A stretch of DNA of 64,000 nt from Myxococcales bacterium (lineage in GTDB: Bacteria > Myxococcota_A > Polyangia > Polyangiales > Houyiibacteriaceae). The notes under the pieces were generated by a model. The model worked only from the letters and a program-made list of their open reading frames with translations, had not been told where the DNA came from and did no database searches. A program made the translations under genes and the position numbers. Positions within the stretch are counted from its first letter, which is position 1. Each line of letters starts with the position of its first letter. Positions 48,688-57,413 of the stretch are shown here, piece by piece. The stretch spans positions 1 through 64,000 of the forward strand of contig JAOTYL010000003.1 of assembly GCA_029861865.1 (NCBI GenBank). Direction: 5' to 3'.

Positions 48688-49128
48688 ATGCGCTATCTCC
48701 ACACGATGATTCGCGTCAGCGACCTGGAAGCTTCGCTCGACTTCTTTTGCAACAAGCTCGGCCTCGTGGAGCACCGGCGATCGGAAAACGAGAAGGGGCG
48801 ATACACGCTGGTCTTTCTCACCAGCCCCGAAGACCGCGCGCGCGCACAGGCAGAAGTGTCGCCGCTATTGGAGCTGACCTATAACTGGGATCCCGAACAG
48901 TACACGGGCGGACGCAACTTCGGTCACTTGGCGTTCGAGACCGAAGACATCTACGCCCTGTGCCAGCGGCTGATCGACAAAGGCGTCACGATCAATCGCC
49001 CACCCCGCGACGGCCGAATGGCATTCGTCCGCTCCCCCGACGGAATCTCGATCGAGCTGTTACAAAAAGGCAAAGCTCTCCTGCCCGCCGAACCGTGGGC
49101 GTCGATGCCGAACACCGGAGCCTGGTAG
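48688..49128 (+). CDS. gloA: Glyoxalase I (lactoylglutathione lyase)
   Basis: 146 residues, ATG at 48688. Vicinal-oxygen-chelate fold; the metal ligands H5 ([10 protein letters not shown]), E62 (LELTYNW), H80 (NFGHLAFE) and E123 (GISIELLQ) are all present. Residues 70-78 and the AFVRSPDG block match GloA. It converts the methylglyoxal-glutathione hemithioacetal to lactoylglutathione. The start is divergent from lpdA with a short shared promoter space. Confidence 0.95.
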
Positions 49129-49312
49129 TCGCCGAGCAGAGTTGCGGGTGGGCACTCGAAAGGTTCCGCTGTAGGTGTAAGAATTTGCTCCGCGCGTCTT
49201 GTGAGAAGTCCGACATAAAAATACAATCCGTGAAGATGTTTGACAGGTCCGCCCCTATATCGCACACATTGGGTGGCAGCGGATGTTACCTCCCTTTTCT
49301 GGAAGGCGTTAA

Positions 49313-52300
49313 ATGTGCAGGTATCGGTCGGCACCGCGGCAAACTCGGTTTGCCACGGTAGGGTTTCTTATCGTTGCAAGCTTGATCGCTGCTGGCTGTG
49401 GGGAATCCACGGGCGGCGACGGAGAGCCCCCGAGCGTTAGCCGGACGGTCGTGAAATCTGGGTTGGACGCCCCCCCTGTCCCAGTCGGTCCTTTTCTCGA
49501 TGGAGTCCTTCCCACTCGGACGCCGAGCGATTTGACCAGCGCGACCTGGGAGATCATCGAAGCGTTTCCAAACCTGACCTTTAATCAGACGCTCGTCATC
49601 GTCACCAACCCCGCCAACAATCGCCTCTACATCGGGTCGCGCGACGGGAACATCTTTTCGTTCGAGAACACGCCGAGCGTCGCGAGCTCCGAGCCATTCG
49701 TCGATCTTCGCGACCGGGTCGCGGTCGTTTGGGACGGCGGCTTTCTCGGCCTGGCATTCCATCCGGACTTCGGAACGCCAGGGTCGCCGTATGAAACGAC
49801 TTTCTACGTGTACTATTCGTCGTTCTGCCCCACGACCCTCAGCGCCGGGAGCTACGTCAACGATTTCAACAACTGCAACCCGGGTTATCCCACGGGTTCG
49901 ACGGGTGGCTTTTTCAACACTTGGCTCCGGCTGTCGCGGTTCGAGGCGTTCTGGGATGCAGGCCTCGGTACTTGGCGTGGCGATCCGGATAGCGAGGTCC
50001 CGCTCTTCAACATTCGTTTGTACAACGGGTCGCACCGTGGCGGCGGACCCGTCTTCGGCCAGGATGGTTACATGTACGTCGCGATCGGCGACCAGTTTCG
50101 CTACGAGACCGCCCAGGACATCGCCGCGAACTTCGAGGGCGGCTCGATTCGAATCGACGTCGACATCGTCGACAACGGTGATGGCACCTGGAGCTGTGCG
50201 AGCGGCAGCCACCAACCGATTAGAAAGATGCAAGACGTCACGGGGAACCCGGACGAGATGACGGGCCATCAGTACTGCATCCCAGACGACAACCCCTGGC
50301 CCGGCTTGTCGGGCGAGAACTTCGGTGAGTACAACACCATCGGGCATCGGAATCCGCACCGCATCGCGGTAGATCCAGTCACCGGCCGGATGTGGTCCGG
50401 CGAAATAGGTCAAAGCACCCGCGAAGAGGTCAACGTTCTGTTGACCGGTCACAACTATCAGTGGCCCTACATGGAAGGGCTCACGACGGGGGTCCGGCCG
50501 AGGCCCCCAACCGTCATCGGCATCGAGCAGCCCCCCGTCATCGATTTCGTTCGCTCCGAAGCTCGAGCGATCATCGGCGGCTACGTGTATCGCGGAACCA
50601 AGTTCCCAGGGCTTTACGGGAAGTACCTCGCCGGCGATTACGTCTTGGACAACATCTGGGCGATCACGTTGGACGAGCAGACGATGACCGCTACCAAGGA
50701 TTTCCTGACGACCTTCACGCCGGGAGGTCTTGGGACTTGGGGACAGGACAATAACGGCGAGGTTTACCTCGGAGACGTGTTTGGAACCGACGCGCTGTAC
50801 ACCCTGGACGAAATCGCTCAATCCGTCCCCGAGCCTCCGGCGCTGCTGTCCGACGTCGGCGCGTTCCAGGATCTCGTTTCCCTCGACCCGAGCCCCTTCT
50901 GGGTGCCCTACCAGCTCAACCAACCGTTCTGGTCCGATGGCGCGGCGAAATTCCGGTGGATCGCGCTTCCGAACGACGGCGCGCGAGATACCGCTGGAGA
51001 GCAGATCGGGTACTCGGAAACGGGCATCTGGAGTTACCCCACCGGCACGGTTTTGATGAAGCACTTCGAGCTGCCGCTCGACGAGAATGACCCGAGCTTA
51101 ACGGCGCGACTCGAAACACGCTTCCTGGTTCTAGGTGACGACGACAAGTGGTACGGCGTGACTTACCGATGGCGACTAGATCACACCGATGCGGAGCTTC
51201 TGACGACATCCGCCACCCGCGACTACAGCATCGCGCTCGCAGGCGGCGGAACACGAGACCAGACCTGGTACTTCCCTGCGCGCCAGCAATGCCTGGCCTG
51301 TCACCTCCAGGTGTCTGGAGGCGCTCTCGGTCTCAATACGCGTCAGCAAAACGGGGACATGTTCTACCCGTCGACCGGACGCACCGACAACCAGCTGGTC
51401 ACCTGGAACCATCTTGAGATGTTCTCGCCAGCACTCGACGAGGCTACGATTCCCACGCTTCTGCGTTCGGTCGAATTCACTGACGTATCGGCCTCGTTGG
51501 AAGATCGCGCGCGCTCATGGCTCGACTCGAACTGCGGCTACTGCCACCGCCCAGGTGGCGCAAACGCAGGCTTCGATGCGAGGCTGACCACCCCATTTGA
51601 GAATCAGGGCATGGTCTACGGCGCGGTTCGAGACGACCTCGGTTTTCCAGGCATGACAGTGCTCACGCCCGGTGATCCGACTCTCTCAGCCCTCTACCAG
51701 CGCGCGGGCGCCGTTGGACCGATTGGCATGCCGCCGTTGGCCAAGGCGCTCGCACAGACGCCCGCCGTCGACATCTTGGGCGAGTGGATCCTCCGTGTGG
51801 ATCCAGCTTTCCCCAGCAACGACCCGCCGACCCTGACGAACCCTGGGCCACTGCAAAGCGAGGTCGGCGAATCGGTTTCGCCTAGCCTGCAGGCGACCGA
51901 TCCCAACGGTGACCTCCTCTACTATGATGCAGCGGGCCTCCCGCCGGGGCTAACACTCGACCACACCTCGGGCCAGATCACCGGGACGCTCACGGCTGCC
52001 GCCCTCGGTACCCACGACGTCACGGCCAGCGCGTCGGACCAAAATGAGGTCTCGGTGGTGAGCTACACATGGACCGTGTCCCCCCCGGCTGGTGGTTGCG
52101 GCGACGGAAGCCAGGACCCCGGCGAGGAGTGCGACGACGGGAACCTGACGGATGGCGACGGATGCACCTCGAGCTGCGTCCTCGAGTTCTGTGGCGACGG
52201 CATCGTGAACAACGGCGGACTAGAAACTTGTGAGCCGCCGAATACCGCCCTGTGCAGCAGCACCTGCACGATCATACCTGGCGGAATGTCGTGCACTTCG

Positions 52301-55300
52301 GACCTCGACTGTGACGACGGCAACGTTTGCACTGACGACCAGTGCGACCCAGGCACGAGCACTTGCTTGCACGATAACATCGCCGTCGCGTGCGAGGACC
52401 AAAATGCCTGCACGTCGATCGACGTGTGCGCAGAGGGAGTGTGCGTCGGTGGCGACCTGGCCGGCGGTTGCACGTCGTGTGAGGGCTTGGCGGACCTTCC
52501 TCCCGAAGGTGGCGTCTTTTTCGGTTCGATTGCGGGGTCGAGTTTCCTCACGGGGAGCTGCGGCTCTACGGGGAACACACCGGAACGTGTGTACCGCTGG
52601 GTTCCTGAGGTGAGCGGGCTCGTCACGATCGAAACCTGTGGCCCCGAGACGGACTACGACACCGCGCTCTACGTTCGATCCGACTCGTGCGAGACCGGCT
52701 CCGAGATCGACTGCAACGACGACACCACCGGTTGCGGCGTCAACGACGGCCTCTCGAATGCGGCGCGCCACGGCTCGAGAATTCAACTCGTTGCCGAACA
52801 GGGTCGACCGTACTTCATCGTCGTGAGCGGCTACAACGGGAGGATTGGCAACTACAAGTTGACGGTGTCTACTACGACTGCGTCGTGCGGGAACGGAGTG
52901 CAAGATGCGGGGGAAGAGTGCGATGGCGCCGACGCGGGGAATTGTGCCAGCGGACAATGTCAGGGCACCGGCGACGCTAATCCTTGCTCCTGCGTGTCTC
53001 CCTCGAGCGCACCAGACTTGGTTTCTGCGGTCTTGGAGCTCGGCATCGAGTTCGACACCACTGTCCCCTCGGAGGACGTTGCCGAGGGGTGTGCAAGCGC
53101 GACTTCGGGCATCGACATCCTGCGGTTCCGTACGGATACCATCAATCAAGGGAACGCAGATATGGTGCTGGGGGCTCCAAGCTGTCCGAACTGCAGCTCG
53201 AGTCCCGGTGCGTCCTGCGGAAACCCGAACTTCGTCTGCTCTCCACCAGGAGGGCATGGGCATCCGCATTACGACAACTTCGCTCGCTTCGATCTAGTCG
53301 ACACCGTCACGCGCGCGGTCGTGGCGACGACGCACAAGCGTGGATTTTGCCTGCGCGATAGCTTCTGTACTACCGGCTCGGCTTTCTATGATTGCGGGTT
53401 CCAGGGAATCAGTGCCGGGTGCGGGGACAAATACAGCAGGTTTCTCGGCTGCCAGTTCGTCGAGATCACTGGAGTTCCGACTGGCCAGTACGAGCTGCAG
53501 GTAACCGTCGATCCCTTCAACCTATTCCCAGAGTTGGACGAGAACAACAACGTGAGCGTAGCGCCCGTGACGATTACGCGGGCTGTCGAGCAGCCGATCT
53601 CCCCCCTCGGAGGCGTGTTCGCTGGATTCACGAGCGGTTCGAGCGCCCATTCAGGCTCCTGCGCTTCAAGCGGTACCGGAAGCTCGCCCGAGCAAGTCTT
53701 CACGCTCACCCCGACGACCTCGGGAACCTACACCGTTCAAACCTGCAGTCCGAACACCAATTACGACACTGTCGTGTACGTGCGGGAAGGTGCGCTCGGT
53801 GGGGCCCAGATTGGCTGCAACGACGATACGACAGGCTGCGCGGTGAATAGCGGCTCCTCAGGCGCCAGCCGGCATGGCTCGGTGGTTTCCTTCGACGTAA
53901 CCGCAGGCCAAACCTATTACATCGTGGTCGATGGCTACAATGCAGAGGGTGCGTTCGAGCTGACGGTGACTCGGCCCGATGGGGGATTCTGCGGGAATGG
54001 TACCGCCGACGGTCCCGAAGCGTGCGATGGCGCCGACGATGGCGCGTGTCCGGGACTATGCCAGCAAGACTGCAGCTGCGACTCGCAGCCCAGTGTGTGT
54101 GGCGATGGAGTCATGGGCGGGAGCGAGGCGTGCGACGGTGCCGACGACGCTGCTTGCCCGGGTCTCTGTCAGACCGACTGCACGTGCGCCCCGCCGCCGG
54201 TGTGTGGCGACGGCACTCAAGAGGGTGGCGAGGCGTGCGATGGTAGCGACGATGCTGCCTGCCCCGGACTCTGCCTGCCCGACTGTGCCTGCGCTCCCCC
54301 GACAGCGACCAGCAACACCCTGGTTCCCGTCAAGGACAATACACTCTTCGAGAGCGCTCTTGGTGACCTCAGCAATGGCGCGGGCGACTACCTGTTCGCG
54401 GGGCGCACCGGGGCCGCCAAACTACGGCGCGCTCTGATGGCTTTCGACGTAGCTGGAGGCGTTCCCGCCGGCTCGATCATTCACGCCGCGAAGCTGACCC
54501 TGAACATGTCGCGCACGGTAGCCGGACCTTCAGATGTAAGTCTGCATCGAATGACAGCGGATTGGGGCGAAGGCACGTCGGACGCACCGGGAGAGGAGGG
54601 CGGTGGCGCCCCTGCGACGGACGGGGACGTGACCTGGCTCTACACCCAGTACGATTTGATCACTCCCGCCAGCTCGCCAGCATGGAGCACGCCAGGCGGC
54701 GACTTCGAAGCGGGCGCCAGTGCGGCCACCTCCGTTGCATTGGAGGGCTACTACTCCTGGTTCTCGCCGGGGCTCACAGCGGACGTGCAAGCATGGCTCG
54801 ACGATCCGGCAGGCAACTTCGGTTGGATCATGGTCGGCGACGAGCAGAACCAGCCCACGGCCAAGCGTTTCGACAGCCGAGAGAACGGCGTCTCGGCCAA
54901 CTGGCCCGAGCTCGTGGTCTACTTCTCCCCCCCCTCGTCGAACTGGGGTGCTTGCTGCGCCGTCGACGGCAGCTGCGGCTTCGCGCTCGACGCCGTCGAC
55001 TGCGCGTCGCAAGGTGGCGAATACCAGGGCGACGCCACGATCTGCAGCCCGAACCCGTGTCCGCTGCCGCCCGACATCTGCGGCAACGGCATCCTCGGTC
55101 CCGGCGAAGAGTGCGAGGTCGGCGAGGACGACGCCTGCCCCGGCCTGTGCCAGGGCGATTGCACTTGCGCACCTCCACCCGCCTGCGGCAACGGTGTGCA
55201 CGAGACGGGCGAAGAGTGCGACGCGCCTGATGTTTCGGGTTGCCCGACGGGGCAATGTTACGGTCCAGGCTCGAGCGAAGGACCCGAGTGTACGTGTGTG

Positions 55301-56431
55301 CCGCCAGCGACCGACATTCCAGCGGGTGGCGGCATCGTCAGCGGCTTCACGAGCGGCGCCAGCAACGACAGCGGGTCGTGTGGATCGGGAAGTGTGAACG
55401 CGCCCGAGCAGGGTTTCGTATGGGTGCCTGACTTCACCGGAGCGGTCACCCTCGAAACCTGTAGTCCCAACACCGAGTTTGACACGGTGCTCTATGTTCG
55501 CGAAGGCGGTTCGACCGGTAGCGAGGTCGCCTGCAATGACGACACCTCTGGTTGTGGAGTCAGTAGCGGGTCTGGAAACTCGGGCCGTCATGGGTCGCGT
55601 GTGACGATCAATGTGGTCGCGGGACAGACCTATTACGTGGTGGTCGATGGATACCGTCCGTCTTCCGGGGCGGACGAGGGCGCATTTGAGCTAGCTGTCA
55701 CGCCGGCCGGAGGTGGGCCCGGCCCGCTCCCGCCGATCGCTCAGCCCGACTCGAGAACGACCGACCAAGACACGCCGATCACGATCGACGTGTTGTCGAA
55801 TGACAGCGATCCGGACGGGGTTCTCGTTCCGTCGTCTGTCGCCGTCATCGTGTCAGCTTCAAATGGCGTCACCTCGGTGAACCCGGCTGACGGTATGATC
55901 ACCTACACGCCGAATGCGTTGTTCGAGGGCTTGGATCAGTTCACGTACGAAGTGTTTGATGCGGATGGTCTATCCGACACGGCGGTCGTGACCGTGAACG
56001 TCACCAGCACTCCTTCGAGCGCGACCCCCATTCCTCCGACGGGCGGGGTGATCTCCGGCTTCACCAGCGGCAGCAGCATCTATAGTGGGACCTGTGCGGG
56101 AGCGAGCGCAAGGGCACCAGAGCAGGTCTTCGAGTGGGTGCCCGATGTATCGGGGACTGCGACCGTCGAGACCTGCAGTCTGAACACCGAGTTCGATACG
56201 GTGCTGTATGTGCGGGATGGCGATATCGCTGGACCCGAGCTGGGTTGCTCCGACGATGTCGCCGGATGTGCGGTAAACAGCGGCTCTTCCAACTCGGGAC
56301 GCCATGGCTCCCGCGTAGTCTTCGACGTGGTTGCGGGTCAAACCTACTTCATCTTTGCGGACGCCTATTCACCGTCGTCCGGGGCCACCGAAGGGAACTT
56401 CGAGCTGACGGTCATCCCCGCTGGACCATGA
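49313..56431 (+). CDS. Giant lipoprotein: sugar-dehydrogenase-like propeller, di-haem cytochrome c, lysyl oxidase, PPC and Cys-rich domains
   Basis: 2372 residues, ATG at 49313 with GGAAGG seven bases upstream; lipobox LIAAGC at Cys 28. Domains by eye: 70-500 PQQ-type GSDH propeller (GFLGLAFHPDF, GGGPVFGQDGYMYVAIGD, IGHRNPHRIAVDP); 515-830 HNE_0200-like part with haem motifs CLACH (660) and CGYCH (741); 835-925 Ig-like; 930-1050 Cys-rich (GDGSQDPGEECDDGN); four PPC domains at about 1060-1190, 1427-1553, 2001-2132 and 2239-2372; lysyl-oxidase domain about 1234-1420, with H1315/H1317/H1319, K1342 (HKRGFC) and Y1374 (GCGDKY); 1556-1662 Cys-rich repeats; 1666-1875 DNRLRE; 2142-2232 cadherin/Big-like. 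Predicted outer-membrane or extracellular redox protein. The frame is intact throughout; substrates are unknown. Confidence 0.85.
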   Translation: MCRYRSAPRQTRFATVGFLIVASLIAAGCGESTGGDGEPPSVSRTVVKSGLDAPPVPVGPFLDGVLPTRTPSDLTSATWEIIEAFPNLTFNQTLVIVTNPANNRLYIGSRDGNIFSFENTPSVASSEPFVDLRDRVAVVWDGGFLGLAFHPDFGTPGSPYETTFYVYYSSFCPTTLSAGSYVNDFNNCNPGYPTGSTGGFFNTWLRLSRFEAFWDAGLGTWRGDPDSEVPLFNIRLYNGSHRGGGPVFGQDGYMYVAIGDQFRYETAQDIAANFEGGSIRIDVDIVDNGDGTWSCASGSHQPIRKMQDVTGNPDEMTGHQYCIPDDNPWPGLSGENFGEYNTIGHRNPHRIAVDPVTGRMWSGEIGQSTREEVNVLLTGHNYQWPYMEGLTTGVRPRPPTVIGIEQPPVIDFVRSEARAIIGGYVYRGTKFPGLYGKYLAGDYVLDNIWAITLDEQTMTATKDFLTTFTPGGLGTWGQDNNGEVYLGDVFGTDALYTLDEIAQSVPEPPALLSDVGAFQDLVSLDPSPFWVPYQLNQPFWSDGAAKFRWIALPNDGARDTAGEQIGYSETGIWSYPTGTVLMKHFELPLDENDPSLTARLETRFLVLGDDDKWYGVTYRWRLDHTDAELLTTSATRDYSIALAGGGTRDQTWYFPARQQCLACHLQVSGGALGLNTRQQNGDMFYPSTGRTDNQLVTWNHLEMFSPALDEATIPTLLRSVEFTDVSASLEDRARSWLDSNCGYCHRPGGANAGFDARLTTPFENQGMVYGAVRDDLGFPGMTVLTPGDPTLSALYQRAGAVGPIGMPPLAKALAQTPAVDILGEWILRVDPAFPSNDPPTLTNPGPLQSEVGESVSPSLQATDPNGDLLYYDAAGLPPGLTLDHTSGQITGTLTAAALGTHDVTASASDQNEVSVVSYTWTVSPPAGGCGDGSQDPGEECDDGNLTDGDGCTSSCVLEFCGDGIVNNGGLETCEPPNTALCSSTCTIIPGGMSCTSDLDCDDGNVCTDDQCDPGTSTCLHDNIAVACEDQNACTSIDVCAEGVCVGGDLAGGCTSCEGLADLPPEGGVFFGSIAGSSFLTGSCGSTGNTPERVYRWVPEVSGLVTIETCGPETDYDTALYVRSDSCETGSEIDCNDDTTGCGVNDGLSNAARHGSRIQLVAEQGRPYFIVVSGYNGRIGNYKLTVSTTTASCGNGVQDAGEECDGADAGNCASGQCQGTGDANPCSCVSPSSAPDLVSAVLELGIEFDTTVPSEDVAEGCASATSGIDILRFRTDTINQGNADMVLGAPSCPNCSSSPGASCGNPNFVCSPPGGHGHPHYDNFARFDLVDTVTRAVVATTHKRGFCLRDSFCTTGSAFYDCGFQGISAGCGDKYSRFLGCQFVEITGVPTGQYELQVTVDPFNLFPELDENNNVSVAPVTITRAVEQPISPLGGVFAGFTSGSSAHSGSCASSGTGSSPEQVFTLTPTTSGTYTVQTCSPNTNYDTVVYVREGALGGAQIGCNDDTTGCAVNSGSSGASRHGSVVSFDVTAGQTYYIVVDGYNAEGAFELTVTRPDGGFCGNGTADGPEACDGADDGACPGLCQQDCSCDSQPSVCGDGVMGGSEACDGADDAACPGLCQTDCTCAPPPVCGDGTQEGGEACDGSDDAACPGLCLPDCACAPPTATSNTLVPVKDNTLFESALGDLSNGAGDYLFAGRTGAAKLRRALMAFDVAGGVPAGSIIHAAKLTLNMSRTVAGPSDVSLHRMTADWGEGTSDAPGEEGGGAPATDGDVTWLYTQYDLITPASSPAWSTPGGDFEAGASAATSVALEGYYSWFSPGLTADVQAWLDDPAGNFGWIMVGDEQNQPTAKRFDSRENGVSANWPELVVYFSPPSSNWGACCAVDGSCGFALDAVDCASQGGEYQGDATICSPNPCPLPPDICGNGILGPGEECEVGEDDACPGLCQGDCTCAPPPACGNGVHETGEECDAPDVSGCPTGQCYGPGSSEGPECTCVPPATDIPAGGGIVSGFTSGASNDSGSCGSGSVNAPEQGFVWVPDFTGAVTLETCSPNTEFDTVLYVREGGSTGSEVACNDDTSGCGVSSGSGNSGRHGSRVTINVVAGQTYYVVVDGYRPSSGADEGAFELAVTPAGGGPGPLPPIAQPDSRTTDQDTPITIDVLSNDSDPDGVLVPSSVAVIVSASNGVTSVNPADGMITYTPNALFEGLDQFTYEVFDADGLSDTAVVTVNVTSTPSSATPIPPTGGVISGFTSGSSIYSGTCAGASARAPEQVFEWVPDVSGTATVETCSLNTEFDTVLYVRDGDIAGPELGCSDDVAGCAVNSGSSNSGRHGSRVVFDVVAGQTYFIFADAYSPSSGATEGNFELTVIPAGP

Positions 56432-56447
56432 GGTCGGGGGTGTTATC

Positions 56448-57413
56448 GTGCGCCCGATGCAGGATAGAAATGAGTGCGTCGCCTGGCTGGCCGCGTGTAT
56501 TGGCCTTCTTGCCTCGGCCTGCGGCAGCAGCGGCTCGGACACCGTCAGCGTCGGCGCGAGCCTTGGGTGTGCGGACGGCACGCTGGACCAGAGCGTCGTT
56601 CACGTCGATCTAGAATTTGGCGGCGAAAGTCGGAGCTACGAGCTCCACGTGCCGCCGAGCTACGATGGCAACACGCCCATGCCGTTGTTGCTCAACTTCC
56701 ACGGGTTCACGTCGAACGGGCCGCAGCAGCAGTTCTTTTCGGAGATGGACGGAACCGCCGATGAACGTGGCTTCGTCGTGGCCTATCCGAACGGCATCGC
56801 GAGCTCGTGGAACGGAGGCTCATGCTGCGGTGCGGCACAAGCAGAAGACATCGACGACGTCGGTTTTGCACGTGCCGTCATCGACGACATCGGTGGACGT
56901 GGCTGCATCGACCTGTCGCGGGTCTACGCGGCGGGCATGTCCAATGGTGGATTCTTGTCGCATCGGCTGGCGTGCGAAGCGGCCGATGTGATCGCCGCGA
57001 TCGGGCCGGTCGCTGGAGTGCTCGTCCTCGATCCTGCCAAATGCACACCGTCGCGGCCGATTTCGGTCATTCAGTTCTATGGCACCGAAGATCCGCTGGT
57101 CCCTTATGATGGAGGGGGCTTGGCGGGCGGCTTGAGCGCCCCGGAGACGCAAGCCGGCTGGGCGGAGCGCAACGGCTGCACCGGAGGGTCGACGGTGACG
57201 TACAGCAATGGCGACGTCACCTGCGAAACGATCGACCAGTGCGACGGCAACGTCACCGTGACGATGTGCACCGTGGAAGGCGGCGGTCATTGTTGGCCCG
57301 GGCAGACCCTTTGCGGTCAAATCCTCGAGAGCATCGACCTCGGACGAAGCACCACGGACATCATCGCCAATGAAGCGATGTGGGACCTGTTCGAGACAGT
57401 GAACCTGCCGTAG
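56448..57413 (+). CDS. Secreted LpqC/PHB-depolymerase-family esterase lipoprotein
   Basis: 321 residues from a GTG at 56448 (an ATG at 56457 is possible). Signal peptide with lipobox LLASAC. Alpha/beta-hydrolase: PLLLNFHGFTSNG, nucleophile Ser in YAAGMSNGGFLSH, Asp in FYGTEDPLVPYDG and His in VEGGGHCWPG. Several Cys (SCCG, GCID, NGCTGG, MCTVEGG) suggest disulfides. The family includes feruloyl and polyhydroxybutyrate esterases. It lies 16 bases after the giant redox lipoprotein, likely co-transcribed, which suggests a joint extracellular attack on a polymer or glycan. Confidence 0.88.
   Translation: MRPMQDRNECVAWLAACIGLLASACGSSGSDTVSVGASLGCADGTLDQSVVHVDLEFGGESRSYELHVPPSYDGNTPMPLLLNFHGFTSNGPQQQFFSEMDGTADERGFVVAYPNGIASSWNGGSCCGAAQAEDIDDVGFARAVIDDIGGRGCIDLSRVYAAGMSNGGFLSHRLACEAADVIAAIGPVAGVLVLDPAKCTPSRPISVIQFYGTEDPLVPYDGGGLAGGLSAPETQAGWAERNGCTGGSTVTYSNGDVTCETIDQCDGNVTVTMCTVEGGGHCWPGQTLCGQILESIDLGRSTTDIIANEAMWDLFETVNLP

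Follow-up and report, generated by a model that had tools for sequence, protein, structure and literature searches.

A lipoprotein of a Myxococcales bacterium carries a GSDH-type propeller, a dihaem cytochrome domain and a lysyl-oxidase domain on one chain

Why should one surface protein carry a sugar-dehydrogenase-like propeller, a dihaem cytochrome and a lysyl oxidase (LOX), and do these parts work together? The question is raised by a gene at 49313..56431 (+) of the window, the whole 64,000-nucleotide stretch of Myxococcales DNA that was analysed. Its reading frame starts with ATG, has GGAAGG a few bases 5' of the start, and stays open for 2372 codons with no internal stop, in agreement with a preliminary description, made from the sequence alone, that had read a single uninterrupted frame of 2372 residues. 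The signal peptide with the lipobox SLIAAG-C29 (49313..49399, +; read by pattern) predicts a lipoprotein at the cell surface, as had been proposed. Pfam and NCBIfam profile matches bore out the GSDH, haem, lysyl-oxidase, Cys-rich and DNRLRE modules in the order given before, with GSDH and Lysyl_oxidase above their cut-offs and TIGR03806 homologous but below its own, and added two domains to that list, He_PIG and Big_9. From the N to the C terminus, the chain consists of the GSDH propeller, the dihaem domain, He_PIG, myxo_disulf Cys-rich repeats, PPC-like repeat 1, the lysyl oxidase, PPC-like repeat 2, Cys-rich repeats, DNRLRE, further Cys-rich repeats, PPC-like repeat 3, Big_9 and PPC-like repeat 4. 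A sequencing or assembly error that joined two genes is unlikely, because the gene has no exact match of more than 19-20 bases to either of the two paralogous regions with which it could be confused in assembly, and because codon-position GC is similar along the whole fusion gene. The divergence from the paralogues is also too large for a simple assembly artefact.

Lysyl oxidases helped to build the extracellular matrix of animals. The lysyl-oxidase domain of the fusion protein (residues 1256-1425; 53078..53587, +), delimited by Pfam, alignment and a structure model, matched the Lysyl_oxidase profile (PF01186) with an E value of 1.8e-22 and 80.4 bits against a cut-off of 20.4. His1315, His1317 and His1319 form the copper motif HxHxH, and Lys1342 and Tyr1374 are the LTQ precursors. 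Alignment with 56 other bacterial LOX domains (57 sequences in total) showed this Lys and Tyr to be invariant and the copper His residues nearly so. All copper and quinone-precursor residues are present in the domain, which the preliminary description had called complete. An AlphaFold2 model of the domain (mean pLDDT 88.7) showed the LOX fold, and the only PDB match below an E value of 0.001 in a Foldseek comparison was human LOXL2 (5ze3, E 2.8e-8). The domain belongs to a subtype with extra cysteines ahead of the copper motif; two LOX genes on the same contig, at about 162-164 kb, and the loci L116 and L117 share this subtype. The conserved residues are the same as those used by Grau-Bove et al. 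to predict catalytic competence (PMC4448552). Prokaryotic LOX proteins are mostly single-domain (PMC4448552), and an archaeal one, HTU-LOX, has proven activity on lysine polymers in an H2O2-release assay (PMC6452851).

The dihaem cytochrome domain (residues 507-829; 50831..51799, +), recognised through NCBIfam and its relatives, is TIGR03806-like. It scored 189.6 bits against that profile (SO2930 dihaem cytochrome) over residues 509-827, under the curated cut-off of 313.3, and a stand-alone dihaem protein of the host genome, at 228 bits, also stayed under it. The two haem c sites, CLACH at 660-664 (51290..51304, +) and CGYCH at 741-745 (51533..51547, +), were found by sequence and by comparison with relatives exactly where they had been placed before, and the CxxCH motifs were in register, with Cys and His invariant, in 32/32 relatives. 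Met806, Lys546 and Lys583 were invariant in all 32 dihaem sequences as well. The same set showed no other conserved Met or His that could serve as the sixth ligand of haem 1, which might possibly be ligated by Lys546 or Lys583 or have an open site. Genes for cytochrome c assembly are present in the host genome.

The propeller (residues 76-502; 49538..50818, +) matched the GSDH profile (PF07995) with an E value of 4.1e-26 and 92.5 bits against a cut-off of 25. Its structure model (mean pLDDT 77.4; 14 sequences) has the six-bladed GSDH-type fold, with structure matches to HHIP and to the bacterial PQQ sugar dehydrogenases 3a9g (5e-21), 2g8s (1.4e-19) and 3das. The earlier label of a PQQ-type propeller held in part. 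In sequence comparison, the catalytic-type His241 and Arg346-Asn347 are kept. In Acinetobacter sGDH, an Arg-x-Arg near the C terminus (Arg406-x-Arg408) binds PQQ; this motif is absent from the propeller, which has GTWGQDNNGE at the equivalent place, and the GSDH-dihaem relatives examined likewise lack it and have similar acidic stretches there. This absence throughout the fused subfamily examined, together with a family profile comparison in which HHIP ranked first (1e-47), would agree with a propeller that is a non-catalytic HHIP-like binding domain, next to a dihaem domain that is a plain carrier or inactive, so that the LOX would be the sole enzyme and modify the matrix from a long adhesive stalk. 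However, HHIP has HDPGR where the propeller has its HRNP stretch, and the retained His241, Arg346 and Asn347 also speak against this reading. The fungal AA12 enzymes do so too, since they lack several of the PQQ contacts of sGDH and yet are active PQQ enzymes (PMC4133262, PMC6881789). Because AA12 enzymes work without these contacts, PQQ-dependent activity of the propeller is plausible.

The genome itself provided evidence on the cofactor that a reader of the sequence alone could not have had. It carries pqqBCDE with profile scores over the cut-offs, and pqqC was found in none of the 18 other genomes of the genus (19 in all), which supports the use of PQQ by the host. The pqqBCDE cluster lies on contig C19 of the genome (L261:6093-12539, -). 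A gene for a GSDH-cytochrome c fusion (547 aa) stands directly upstream of pqqB, ABC-transporter genes follow the cluster, and a simple pattern search of the host found no pqqA. At the level of the order, pqqC was present in 27/52 genomes with GSDH-dihaem proteins versus 26/132 of the others (Fisher p=2.7e-5, ancestry not corrected for). The locus ties the GSDH-dihaem family to PQQ synthesis in the host's genus. The other half of the carriers, 25 of the 52, have no pqqC, as would be expected for a propeller that only binds; the PQQ-synthesis genes of this host, linked as they are to another GSDH-cytochrome, point the other way. On balance, we regard an HHIP-like, non-catalytic propeller as possible, at a rather low probability.

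The dihaem domain is followed by a He_PIG immunoglobulin-like domain (residues 838-923; 51824..52081, +; Pfam E 4.3e-13) and by myxo_disulf_rpt Cys-rich repeats (residues 928-987; 52094..52273, +; NCBIfam). The preliminary description had counted four PPC domains. Four repeats are present at residues 1066-1176 (52508..52840, +), 1433-1546 (53609..53950, +), 2006-2125 (55328..55687, +) and 2244-2363 (56042..56401, +), and they are homologous to one another with E values of 1e-31 or better. None reached the Pfam threshold for PPC (PF04151), with scores of 13.9-15.3 against 25.9 bits and best E values of 0.04-0.1, and repeat 1 had no match; PPC-like is therefore the safe name. Between the second and third of them lies the DNRLRE (CBM96-like) domain (residues 1669-1875; 54317..54937, +), which matched NCBIfam NF033679 with 63.7 bits against a cut-off of 34, and between the third and fourth the Big_9/cadherin-like domain (residues 2140-2229; 55730..55999, +; Pfam E 1.4e-19). 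CBM96, which binds alginate, shares about 30% identity with proteins of the DNRLRE family (PMC9971899).

How often the modules and their combination occur was assessed in genome samples. Chains that carry both GSDH and dihaem domains were found in at least 52 of the 184 genomes of the order, a lower bound counted from the matches listed, and LOX domains in 52 of the same 184 and in 83 of 379 genomes sampled from the phylum. In all, 217 LOX frames (184 distinct) were gathered from the two samples and, beyond these, from 80 loci of a collection of about 85,000 species genomes; nearly all frames with room for a propeller were examined with wide flanks. Among the 184 distinct frames, the window protein was the only fusion of LOX with GSDH or with a dihaem domain, which supports the impression that the combination was otherwise not known. 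Literature searches for TIGR03806, for LOX in Myxococcota and for GSDH-dihaem fusions returned nothing. The locus sets a common, little-described GSDH-dihaem family apart from a rare LOX addition. In a separate observation, verrucomicrobial proteins of 1539-1931 aa combine a trypsin-like protease with lysyl oxidase and PPC domains (L143:5315-11107, L145:6491-11107, L145:9838-14982). A cytochrome near LOX in L145 was considered as a member of the dihaem family and rejected, being of the planctomycete PSCyt/PSD1 type.

The preliminary description had further suggested that the haems could carry electrons between GSDH and LOX. This was not supported. LOX was present in 17/52 genomes of the order with GSDH-dihaem proteins versus 35/132 without, which is not beyond chance (p=0.47), and the two families are not detectably linked in function elsewhere. 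Lysyl oxidases are oxidases that use O2 directly and require no electron carrier, and hence no haem path. A coupled redox machine, in which the dihaem domain would take electrons from LOX or destroy its H2O2, or in which GSDH and LOX would act in sequence on one glycoprotein, is nevertheless suggested by their presence on one chain. In two closely related Flavobacteriales genomes (L202:7579-11398 and L209), moreover, a GSDH gene (472 aa) directly precedes a LOX gene in the same orientation, with about 80 bases between them; haem 1, which has no conserved sixth Met or His, might, speculatively, allow peroxidase-like chemistry. This GSDH gene, however, is missing in the next Flavobacteriales relative (L203), LOX and GSDH-dihaem proteins are each found alone elsewhere, and the dihaem and LOX domains lie about 430 residues apart, with an Ig-like, Cys-rich and PPC-like linker between them. 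Together with the lack of co-occurrence, these points make a coupled machine quite unlikely. We consider it very unlikely that PQQ dehydrogenase, dihaem and LTQ amine oxidase would share a substrate or electrons, for example by making paired sugar and lysine aldehydes for cross-linking, with the haem handling the peroxide from LOX. In another locus, L181, one partial GSDH frame overlaps LOX on the opposite strand.

Where the fusion came from is indicated by the rest of the host genome and by its closest sister. On contig C23, a paralogue of 1885 aa (L035:3145-8802) is 59% identical over window residues 25-987 and consists of GSDH-dihaem, a He_PIG-like/Ig-like stretch and a series of at least 16 Cys-rich repeats, without LOX; its repeats are up to 73% identical to those at residues 928-987. 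On contig C18 (L034, 159-167.5 kb), two LOX genes of the host lie in tandem at about 162-164 kb. One encodes a lipoprotein of 386 aa with a long Gly-rich linker (L034:2275-3435), and the other a PPC-like-LOX-Big_9-PPC-like protein of 796 aa (L034:3620-6010) that is 75% identical to the last 236 residues of the window protein and 56% identical over LOX. Since the host has both halves in separate proteins too, the window gene joins two existing module sets. With the closest sister genome (G018), collinearity at about 87% DNA identity reaches base 49129 and resumes at 56441; between these intact flanks, the sister has 503 bases in place of the fusion gene and no remnant of it. In the sister, the site (L133:11653-12156) holds a frame for an unrelated lipoprotein of about 125 aa, Gly-rich and Kazal-type Cys-rich. 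The fusion gene is a cassette in a variable slot for surface lipoproteins, bounded on the left by a glyoxalase-like gene, named by inspection (48688..49128, +), and followed after 16 bases by a lipoprotein gene of the Esterase_PHB (esterase/PHB-depolymerase) family (56448..57413, +). The latter is conserved across most of the genus, also where the fusion gene is absent.

The fusion gene is therefore lineage-specific and seems to have arisen recently, by shuffling of modules that its genome also carries apart. Its occurrence in one genome only, the unrelated small lipoprotein at the sister site and the separate copies of both halves would also fit a selectively neutral event, in which two genes for surface proteins were fused without gaining a joint role and the product would decay or be reshuffled. 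Against this, all 2372 codons are open with the LOX active-site residues and the haem sites intact, and the divergence of 25-44% from the paralogues suggests that the fusion has been kept for some time. We consider neutrality unlikely. The gene is real and unique in the data searched, has favourable residues for two redox chemistries, and is most economically explained as a shuffle of known modules.

On the basis of these results, we give an even chance to a surface-tethered modular oxidoreductase with two parallel oxidation activities, made by shuffling modules of its own genome; its most likely role is that of a surface-tethered glycan-binding protein whose two oxidation activities are independent. 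The propeller would bind PQQ in a modified way, like the AA12 family, and oxidise a sugar or the end of a polysaccharide, and the electrons would pass through the built-in dihaem domain to the respiratory cytochromes of the cell. The LOX domain, in which self-processing with copper would presumably generate the LTQ quinone, would independently oxidise primary amines of proteins or amino-polymers with O2, giving aldehydes, NH3 and H2O2, while the DNRLRE, Ig-like and PPC-like repeats would space the protein and bind glycans. Both enzymes may work side by side on one and the same target, an extracellular matrix or a prey or plant polymer, and would share a tether rather than an electron path. We infer this parallel, uncoupled action because the families show no association and because of the known chemistry of each part. 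A bacterial LOX on a probably glycan-binding surface stalk, next to a quinohaemoprotein that oxidises sugar, points to chemistry on extracellular polymers, and the fusion protein is a concrete protein in which bacterial LOX function can be assayed. Should GSDH and LOX prove to be coupled, the protein would represent a new kind of enzyme; otherwise it clearly exemplifies the shuffling of domains between families of surface proteins found side by side in one genome.

Among known systems, the PQQ pyranose dehydrogenase of Coprinopsis cinerea (CcPDH; AA12-AA8-CBM1) is a functional analogue: like the window protein, it is extracellular and joins a PQQ propeller of GSDH fold to a cytochrome and to a module that binds carbohydrate, and it shares the catalytic His and Arg-Asn (PMC6881789); it differs in being fungal, in having cytochrome b instead of dihaem c and in lacking LOX. 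The bacterial GSDH-dihaem (SO2930/TIGR03806-like) proteins are about 27-60% identical to the first 830 residues, with the same domain order, but have no LOX and are usually 700-850 aa long. In the C23 paralogue, the place of the LOX/PPC-like part is taken by the Cys-rich repeats together with a C-terminal tail that is hydrophobic and rich in Arg. Conversely, the multi-domain LOX proteins of L034 (796 aa) and L116 (948 aa) have the same PPC-like-LOX-PPC-like layout and a LOX subtype 47-57% identical, whereas GSDH and haem domains are absent from them. Haloterrigena turkmenica LOX, the active amine oxidase HTU-LOX (PMC6452851), and human LOXL2 share the fold and catalytic residues of the window's LOX domain; neither is fused to a dehydrogenase or cytochrome, and LOXL2, unlike the window protein, has SRCR domains.
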